From a bacterium (GTDB lineage Bacteria > Hydrothermota > Tepidihabitantia > SM23-42 > JAOAFX01), in NCBI GenBank assembly GCA_036382775.1, contig DASVHD010000029.1, positions 1-64,000 of the forward strand: a stretch of 64,000 nt of DNA, in the 5' to 3' direction. Position 1 is the stretch's first letter, and each line of letters starts with the position of its first letter. Below the pieces are notes generated by a model. That model was not told the DNA's origin. It made no database searches and saw only the letters and a list, made by a program, of their open reading frames with translations. Below, piece after piece: positions 45,703-46,928 of the stretch. A program made the translations under genes and the position numbers.

Positions 45703-45826
45703 GGGCAATTTATTATTCTCCTTTTCATCACAAAAGCCCATAATAATCCTCCTTCGATGGAAACCATAAAATATTCAATAAGAATTACATGTATGCCGCA
45801 GGGGGATATATGATTCATGGGGCAAT

Positions 45827-46907
45827 GGGGTCAAATCTTCACATTATACATTTTTCAGATTCGCTTTTATCTTGGCTTCAAGCTTGATGAATTGTTCCTT
45901 CAACTTTTTTTCTTTCGCCAACTTGACCTGCAGGCGTTTGCGCATCATATGCACAGAGATATAGTCAATGCCGCCTAACAATTCACCGATCTGCGATTGC
46001 GTTATACTGCAATGCCTGTATAACAACTCTGCAACCATGCCCCGCAGCGCACCATGGCGATGACGCGCATGCAATATATCCTCATTGATCCCGCACTCAT
46101 GTTTAATGATGTCTATCACCTGCAGAGGTTCCAGTGAAGCAAGGTGTAATTCACGATAAGCAGGTTGCTCACGTAAAGATTCGTGTTCGACGAACTGCTT
46201 TACTCTTGTAACAAAGTCCTCATCGCCAAGAATCAATCCGCCATGCGCATTTTTAAAAGGATTTTCTATATCCCGTTTTAATCCATCGGCTATGAACTCA
46301 GCGTATTGCCGGCGGTCTTTAATCATAGACAATAGTATGCTGTGTTCTACAAAACGCTCTTTTTTCTTTTCATCCAGATACCCCTTTAAACTACTCCAGT
46401 GATAATCCCTCGTAAAAATCCACTGCTTTTGGTAATTTTCTGTTGTTATTTTTTGCGTCCGTGCTGGATTTAAATGAAGATAGCGCGATACCTCCAAAAA
46501 ATAGGAGTCTACATCAATTAAAAATGCCTTATAACGACCTTGATAAAGATTACCGCAGCGACCATAGCGCCAATTGAACCAGCCCGTATAACAGATGTTG
46601 AAATGACGCATAAATTCTGCACAGTTCGCTTTCGGCGTTTGAATTAGCAAATGGAAGTGATTGGGCATCAAGACATAGGCATGCAATACTACCTTATATG
46701 TATTAAGTGATCCTTCTAGTAATGTAAGAAAACGCTGGCGGTCTCCATCACACAGGAAGATATTTCTGCGCTCGATCCCCCGGCATGTAATATGATAGTA
46801 TGCTCCAGGGTATTGAATCCTTAATGATCTCGCCACGCCGGAGTTTATTCAACATTGGTAGAAAGTCAAGCCTTATGTATTAATGTATAATGTGAAGATT
46901 TGACCCC
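45827..46907. mobile_element. Y1-transposase element with perfect 26-bp inverted ends
   Basis: The left end (45827-45852, begins GGGGTCAAATCTTCACATT) and the right end (46882-46907, ends GAAGATTTGACCCC) are exact inverse copies over 26 bases. They enclose one transposase gene. The element is 1081 bases long. The two ends being identical points to a recent insertion. No target duplication is obvious: the flanks are GGGGCAAT and AAGTTTAT. Confidence 0.85.
45844..46836 (-). CDS. REP-associated tyrosine (Y1) transposase
   Basis: The 330-residue protein begins MARSLRIQYPGAYYHITCRG and has the HUH motif MPNHFHLLIQTP, with the catalytic Tyr expected in the LYQGRYKAFLID region or just after. Residues 225-330 add a helix-turn-helix domain like DnaA C-terminus (CSITQSQIGELLGGIDYISV). 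Relatives, TnpA_REP, cut single-stranded DNA at hairpins. Its stop lies inside the left terminal repeat. Its codon use is more AT-rich than that of guaB beside it. Confidence 0.9.
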   Translation of the reverse strand: MARSLRIQYPGAYYHITCRGIERRNIFLCDGDRQRFLTLLEGSLNTYKVVLHAYVLMPNHFHLLIQTPKANCAEFMRHFNICYTGWFNWRYGRCGNLYQGRYKAFLIDVDSYFLEVSRYLHLNPARTQKITTENYQKQWIFTRDYHWSSLKGYLDEKKKERFVEHSILLSMIKDRRQYAEFIADGLKRDIENPFKNAHGGLILGDEDFVTRVKQFVEHESLREQPAYRELHLASLEPLQVIDIIKHECGINEDILHARHRHGALRGMVAELLYRHCSITQSQIGELLGGIDYISVHMMRKRLQVKLAKEKKLKEQFIKLEAKIKANLKNV

Positions 46908-46928
46908 AAGTTTATTTCATTTATTCAG

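Follow-up and report, generated by a model that had tools for sequence, protein, structure and literature searches.

We analysed a 64-kb window, the whole stretch of DNA under study here, from a WOR-3 type genome, in which a single-gene element lies on contig DASVHD010000029.1. The encoded 330-residue protein matches Pfam Y1_Tnp at 46 bits (cut-off 23), and the gene sits between two arms, 45826–45852 and 46882–46908, that are perfectly complementary over 27 nt, confirming the initial annotation of a Y1 gene bracketed by perfect inverted ends. The arms had been given as 26 bp; the repeats are indeed perfect but really 27 nt long, the outer T/A having been omitted. The left end had also been described as overlapping the 3′ end of the gene, and the left arm includes its final two codons and stop. 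Throughout the window, only one other perfect inverted repeat of at least 14 nt, a 14-mer, was found at an arm spacing below 2 kb. The protein scores 57 bits against NCBIfam REP_Tyr_transpos, below the cut-off of 80. The flanking genes, named by their translations, presumably encode an IMP dehydrogenase-like and an SPFH-like protein. The features of the locus are as follows.

45827..46907, minus strand: whole element (TIRtron), 1081 bp, inverted ends included
45826..45852, plus strand: terminal inverted repeat (TIR) on the 3′ side of the gene, an outer T followed by GGGGTCAAATCTTCACATTATACATT; holds the stop codon of the gene
46882..46908, minus strand: terminal inverted repeat on the 5′ side of the gene, the same sequence in minus-strand reading
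45844..46836, minus strand: Y1 transposase gene of the TIRYT type, starting at GTG and encoding 330 aa
46255..46827, minus strand: HUH/Y1 catalytic part, about residues 4–194, with the fold of E. coli TnpA_REP
45862..46134, minus strand: putative DnaA domain IV-like DNA-binding part, residues 235–325
45958..45960, minus strand: codon of residue 293 (opposite DnaA T435 in the alignment), covarying with TIR position 21
45949..45951, minus strand: codon of residue 296 (opposite DnaA L438 in the alignment), covarying with TIR position 20
45835..45843, plus strand: DnaA-box-like iteron 1 of the left arm, TIR positions 9–17, ATCTTCACA
45842..45850, plus strand: DnaA-box-like iteron 2 of the left arm, TIR positions 16–24, CATTATACA
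46891..46899, minus strand: iteron 1 of the right arm
46884..46892, minus strand: iteron 2 of the right arm

This arrangement recurs among relatives of the gene. In a scan of species genomes, of which we analysed the best 80 of 369 loci, 69 of the 80 carry an inverted repeat pair scoring at least 15 around the gene, with 4 of the 80 lying at contig edges; the maximum score in 2,280 trials with shuffled downstream sequence was 14. In an enlarged set of 111 distinct proteins for which both flanks were available, the pair is present around 98 and missing around 13, with 6 further proteins at contig edges standing outside the 111. Both counts include two loci, L178 and L233, whose repeats are unrelated. 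Ends of the type GGGGTCA(A/G)(A/G)TCT account for 71 of the 98. Among the best 80 loci, the nearest named relatives come from candidate division WOR-3 and Stahlbacteria metagenome-assembled genomes (MAGs), with others in Desulfobacterota, Nitrospirae, Aegiribacteria and more. Matches in a plasmid collection (20 records) and a phage collection (one) were all distant relatives, below 40% identity. The L178 protein is near-identical in its C-terminal part to the transposases of two genomes of one genus, G013 and G015, and its contig is binned as Spirochaetales, which reflects either horizontal transfer or a binning error. At L149, L150 and L178, a second small inverted-repeat family with ends like CAGG(G/C)TGACCGAGAA sits within the terminal repeat of the first, and one of these three nested insertions is on a Spirochaetales MAG contig.

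The initial annotation held that Y1 elements of the IS200 and REP types normally end in subterminal hairpins and not in long inverted repeats. Long inverted ends on Y1 elements have been published, however, under the names TIRtrons for the units and TIRYTs for the genes, by Di Nocera et al. 2013 (PMC3733652) and were taken up by Quentin et al. 2018 (PMC6006769), two papers from which we drew on excerpts. As described in these excerpts, a RAYT-like Y1 gene lies between long inverted repeats that are unrelated to GTAG REPs and often start GGGG(A/T)(C/G)A, an additional C-terminal helix-turn-helix domain is related to Bac_DnaA_C, and the repeats occur elsewhere in the genome as dimers or clusters. 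The window element shares these features and is a TIRtron, a published kind. Its class within the Quentin scheme is probably subclass 2.1, which is thought there to equal the TIRtron/TIRYT kind and whose C-terminal domain is reported as similar to Bac_DnaA_C, HTH_23 or HTH_28. The window arm begins GGGGTCAA, fitting the GGGGWSAS motif in 7 of 8 letters; the eighth is A rather than the C or G of the TIRtron consensus, a departure compatible with membership since the excerpts give the motif for part of the repeats and thus not as a strict requirement. The GGGG consensus is said by Quentin et al. to be unlike a DnaA box, from which they reasoned that the domain is perhaps uninvolved in target recognition or has evolved for a new target. 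The same excerpts of the published TIRtron descriptions contain neither a two-word inner part, a DnaA-box fit or covariation with the recognition helix, nor empty-site borders or a target preference. Among the open-licence papers searched, no title or abstract opening beyond these two papers linked DnaA with TnpA_REP, a tyrosine transposase, inverted repeats or HUH.

The AlphaFold model of the protein, built from 56 sequences, has a mean pLDDT of 89.6 and comprises two recognizable parts. The catalytic part superimposes on TnpA_REP bound to a REP hairpin (4er8) with a Z-score of 16.3 over 156 aligned residues, and H60, H62 and Y119 are invariant in the alignment of the 56 sequences, so that Y119 would, judging from the motif, be the catalytic tyrosine. 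Residues 235–325 superimpose on DnaA domain IV in complex with a DnaA box (1j1v) with a Z-score of 14.5 (r.m.s.d. of 1.5 over 91 aligned residues) and on the Mycobacterium tuberculosis domain 3pvp with a Z-score of 14.6; the first structures outside Y1 enzymes and DnaA follow at 6.9. When PDB sequences were searched with a profile of the family, 1j1v was retrieved at an E-value of 1.6e-8, and the C-terminal part as modelled and aligned matches DnaA domain IV in both fold and recognition helix. At E 0.01, the Pfam model of the DnaA-like domain matched a single one of 15 family members, which was not the window protein. In the profile alignment, window residues D291, Y292, I293, S294, V295, H296 and M297 stand opposite DHTTVLH of 1j1v. 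We take this stretch to be D433 to H439 of E. coli DnaA. Residues 433–434, 435, 438 and H439, as named in the part of PMC5043019 that we drew on, are consistent with that numbering.

Carrying out the genome search for further copies of the ends that the initial annotation had proposed, we found 14 matches to the outer 24 nt with at most 3 mismatches in the element's own genome, the two in the window included, and none with a reversed control. The matches outside the window form inverted pairs of about 98–211 bp, too short for the gene to fit, on contigs C28, C35, C42, C36 and C5. The opposite end of a second C5 copy is more diverged, and C37 carries one single end without a partner. These MITE-type copies have like ends and no gene, and 2 of 6 miniatures in the own genome have arms within one mismatch of the window arm over 20 nt. 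Short pairs starting and ending with GGGGTCAA(A/G)TCT occur in 13 of 27 genomes of the order, the own genome included, with none in the control. At E 1e-30 or better, the window genome holds one copy of the gene, and relatives are found in 51 of 147 genomes of the phylum.

Several other observations were made in the same genome. On C42 (L016:885-1553), a miniature element lies at the 5′ end of a gene that by its translation is QueC-like; the reading frame begins within the miniature, and the first residues may thus be encoded by the element. Another Y1 gene, L024 on C41, bears flanking hairpin repeats of the CGTCCATCTAAAGATGGACG type, placing REP-like and TIR-like systems side by side in one genome. 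A third, L026 (C29:79432-79767, outside the window), belongs to a different Y1 subgroup with an HVH motif and has long inverted ends, GGGGCAGGCGTTAAC..., of 27 nt that are 96% complementary.

Each end divides into two parts. The first 12 letters, GGGGTCAAATCT, are near-constant in the main group, which was partly selected on these letters. The next 12 vary among elements and are mostly equal at both ends of one element. This inner part is a 7-bp direct repeat that is lineage-specific: an offset of 7 stands out with a z-score of 7.3 among 55 unique arms of gene-bearing elements and 6.0 among 31 arms of gene-less copies, as against |z| of up to 3.1 for the other offsets from 3 to 9. The most strongly covarying arm columns are 14–21, followed by 13–14, 15–22 and 13–20. 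In the window element, iterons 1 and 2 differ at base 6 (C and T, respectively).

The ends had been suggested to be REP-like palindromes. We rejected this for the window: a single arm as single-stranded DNA does not fold (0 kcal/mol), compared with −8 kcal/mol for a REP-like hairpin repeat beside another Y1 gene in the same genome. With RAYT/TnpA_REP and its REP/REPIN sequences the element shares the catalytic fold and paired ends with a G-rich outer tetranucleotide, and the gene-less short inverted pairs resemble REPINs; it differs in having arms that are singly non-palindromic, ends that bracket the gene as a unit and an added DnaA-like domain. With IS200/IS605 elements (IS608, ISDra2) it shares the HUH/Y1 catalytic domain, but those end in subterminal hairpins; the ends here are long inverted repeats, with no hairpin in the 26-nt arms when these are folded on their own, and the protein carries an extra domain predicted to bind DNA. 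In the REP guide model, as given in the excerpt of PMC8266576 that we drew on, GGGG selects a CC cleavage site; we considered this for TIR ends by analogy and do not claim it.

The inner repeat coincides with the best placement of a DnaA box. When TTATNCACA was slid across 38 unique arms in 32 registers (16 offsets on two strands), the best mean fits were at positions 16–24 (5.3 of 9) and 9–17 (5.2), the next reaching 4.9, and these two best registers coincide with the two repeats of the arm. Box bases 5 and 6 thereby fall at arm positions 13/14 and 20/21. According to the part of PMC5043019 that we drew on, base-contacting residues of E. coli DnaA include 432–435 and 438–439, epsilonproteobacterial DnaA boxes have a conserved T at base 5, many epsilon- and deltaproteobacterial DnaAs have Ser at 438, and residues 435 and 438–439 were suggested as a possible cause of the epsilon box difference.

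We examined covariation between arm bases and protein residues on a tree built from the HUH part only (residues 1–225), counting the edges on which both the base and the residue change. The 55 proteins were drawn from the 71 with GGGGTCA(A/G)(A/G)TCT ends after leaving out GGGGTCA(A/G)GTCT ends, proteins of 310 residues or fewer and rows with N or X; the GGGGTCAGGTCT family stands outside this set. By parsimony counts, from which the P values derive, position 21 changed together with residue 293 in 7 of 8 base changes (P = 9e-7) and position 20 with residue 296 in 8 of 11 (P = 5e-7), each pair being the best of 265 columns. Residue 293 was also the best for position 13 (P = 3e-5); for position 14, residue 312 took first place (P = 9e-4) and was followed by 293 (P = 3e-3). 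When the analysis was restricted to the 36 proteins of the window's phylum, residue 293 accompanied 8 of 8 base changes at position 21 (P = 1.4e-7) and residue 296 accompanied 9 of 11 at position 20 (P = 5e-7), again each the best of 235 columns, with 293 ranking first for neither position 13 nor position 14. Position 14 does not follow residue 293 in Desulfobacterota-like members, in which the first iteron looks degraded.

Under a null weighted by branch length and simulated with 20,000 draws, both main pairs reached the lowest attainable P of 5e-5; within the phylum, residue 297, likewise a DnaA contact position, reached it too for position 21. Across 20 bootstrap trees, either main pair ranked first in 16 and lower in 4, the worst case, one tree per pair, being rank 54 or 59 (P = 0.25). 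Overlap of the gene with the arm cannot cause the covariation, as the codons of both residues, 293 and 296, are some 100 nt away from the arm.

For base 6 of iteron 2, residues 293–294 are VS with T (5 of 5), TA with C (5 of 5), SA, SS or ST with G (26 of 26) and MS with G (3 of 3), the exceptions being GA, with T in three and A in three, and TG, with G in four and C in one. The relation is not one to one, with Gly293 accompanying T in three and A in four, Thr293 C in six and G in five, and Val293 T in five and A in one. All 31 proteins with Ser296 have T as base 5 of the iteron 2 box, but many of the 31 are related and so do not count as independent events. The pairing of Ser at position 438 with T at base 5 of the box is what the excerpt of PMC5043019 suggests for epsilonproteobacterial DnaA. 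The likeness to DnaA domain IV thus spans the fold, the alignment of the recognition helix, the box as the best-fitting word on the arm and this combination; the difference is that here the domain is fused to a transposase and, to judge from sequence comparison, apparently reads tandem, lineage-specific box variants in transposon ends.

A different way to account for the ends is that the HUH domain recognizes the arm, or a hairpin of both arms, as folded single-stranded DNA in the manner of REP and IS608 transposases, with the DnaA-like domain doing other work such as tethering to the replication origin or fork. The catalytic part does share the fold of TnpA_REP on its REP hairpin, an entire miniature element forms a single long hairpin when folded (z-score of −10.7), and the arm of one relative, L054, forms a 7-bp stem (z-score of −4.0); we keep this alternative under consideration as arms of some relatives can fold. 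The window arm and that of another relative, L076, however, both stay at 0 kcal/mol with no fold, the arm varies as a direct repeat, and positions 20 and 21 covary best, among the tested columns, with the DnaA-like recognition helix. Base pairing between arms explains neither the covariation nor the direct repeat, which counts against recognition as a folded strand, and we regard it as unlikely. We favour instead that the DnaA-like domain reads the inner words.

Evidence that such elements move as units comes from relatives. Gene-bearing elements in G013 and G015 are 96% identical over 1,070 positions, that is, the element plus 3 bp, and beyond the element nothing longer than 80 bp aligned between the surrounding 9-kb stretches, placing the two at unrelated sites. 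Gene-less copies tend to share arms with the transposase of their own genome: 17 of 34 had an arm within one mismatch, over 20 nt, of that of a resident transposase, with 2.4 expected from other genomes. In this comparison arms that were identical within a genome entered as one, the G014 element was dropped as no resident transposase was at hand, and the resident transposases were those retrieved. A numerous family of 101-bp miniatures in G015 had no arm match among the retrieved resident transposases. G009 carries one transposase and, with it, four miniature pairs that have the same words, except for one arm of one copy.

Flanking sequences point to a target preference. Among 119 elements with distinct flanks, 81 lie between T and A (T|A), with weaker preferences for A at −2 and −3 and for G at −6 and −7, and no excess of target-site duplications. 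IS200/IS605 elements likewise insert without target-site duplication. Insertion of a single strand should leave a strand asymmetry, and none was seen, up- and downstream flanks being alike among 83 gene-bearing elements, and in this the element differs from IS200/IS605.

We searched related genomes for empty sites using the flanks of 24 elements (17, one and six), and ten loci could be aligned, one of which was clean. At this locus, a 140-bp element in G009 (L340), the interval between anchors is 26 nt once the element is subtracted, 26 nt in G012 and 25 nt in G011. The spacing is thus kept without the element, which places its borders at the ends with an uncertainty of about 1 bp. Other G009 loci were off in spacing, by 5 nt (L341), 9 nt (L339) and 12 nt (L342), and L344 and L349 gave no match spanning the junction. 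Intergenic regions of genus g6 were too rearranged for clean empty sites: extra bases were left beside the element at L063 and L087, and at L067, L085 and L103 the comparison met further inserts, ran into a contig end or showed both genomes to carry the element. In genus g4, the L090 locus holds different miniatures at one spot in three genomes, with no clean empty site. The comparison of empty sites proposed at the outset bore out the borders at that one locus of a relative, but for the window copy the two flanks were found side by side in none of 120 related genomes. Joining the flanks of 137 elements restored no convincing interrupted gene.

At three sites, miniature elements with different end words occupy the same place in related species: L113 and L342 (G021 and G009), where the left flank is homologous right up to the element end; L089, L090 and L091, where G021 and G005 are alike against G009; and L087 and L107 (G013 and G015). 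This points either to a strong target preference or to exchange of end words in place. Two more short repeats with many matches lie beside miniatures L105 and L098 in genus g6 (query 1360-1419 and 1089-1135).

The initial annotation had proposed a self-mobile unit, and for the kind this is supported by the gene-less copies, the near-identical relatives at unrelated sites and the empty site of a relative. It bears on the idea that the gene is domesticated and the unit immobile, with the arms serving as operators for self-regulation and the short pairs being relics or binding sites. The excerpts of PMC6006769 that we drew on state that REPtrons do not move as a unit and that copies of the same subclass within a genome are distantly related, and the window genome has its single gene copy; set against this, both arms are kept even in gene-less copies, relatives' elements lie at unrelated sites within one genus despite 96% identity, and a relative's miniature is missing, with spacing kept, in two related genomes, making domestication improbable. 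The idea that the Y1 gene is a passenger between inverted ends of some unrelated transposon family draws on the long inverted ends typical of other transposase families but is hardly credible given inverted repeats around 98 of 111 relatives and arm bases that covary with residues of the Y1 protein itself.

We return to the element as a mobile TIRtron with two-module ends whose inner words are read by the DnaA-like domain, an explanation that as a whole we consider quite probable. The element would be a transposon of about 1.08 kb with a single gene and two modules per end. The outer module, GGGGTCAAATCT, is the presumed site of HUH/Y1 action, and the inner module would consist of two DnaA-box-like words 7 bp apart. 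From the covariation, the fold and the published DnaA contacts, we infer that the inner words are bound by the C-terminal domain resembling DnaA domain IV, with residue 293 probably reading box base 6 and residue 296 box base 5. As the words vary from lineage to lineage, a given transposase would prefer its own ends and the gene-less copies sharing them. Insertion, judging from the sequences flanking relatives' elements and from a single near-exact empty site, would occur mostly between T and A without target-site duplication, and the catalytic domain points to a possible single-stranded DNA route for excision and insertion as in IS200/IS605.

It is likely, although we hold this with some reserve, that an HUH/Y1 transposase took over the DNA-reading domain of DnaA and now reads two tandem altered DnaA boxes per end, with the positions equivalent to 435 and 438 setting box bases 6 and 5, respectively, and each lineage having its own end word and set of miniatures. 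What is known in this picture is the TIRtron; what is new is that the DnaA-like domain, on the strength of sequence covariation and a structural model, seems to read DnaA-box-like repeats in the ends.

With the covariation comes a specific, testable answer to the question raised by Quentin et al. 2018 of what the DnaA-like domain is for and whether it reads the ends. If correct, it would show a route by which a transposase came to have inverted ends read by a separate domain rather than hairpins. The residue–base pairs also bear on which residues make epsilonproteobacterial DnaA favour T at box base 5. If the domain does read the ends in this way, the family would be a natural record of change in DnaA-type specificity, and its members could be predictably retargeted.
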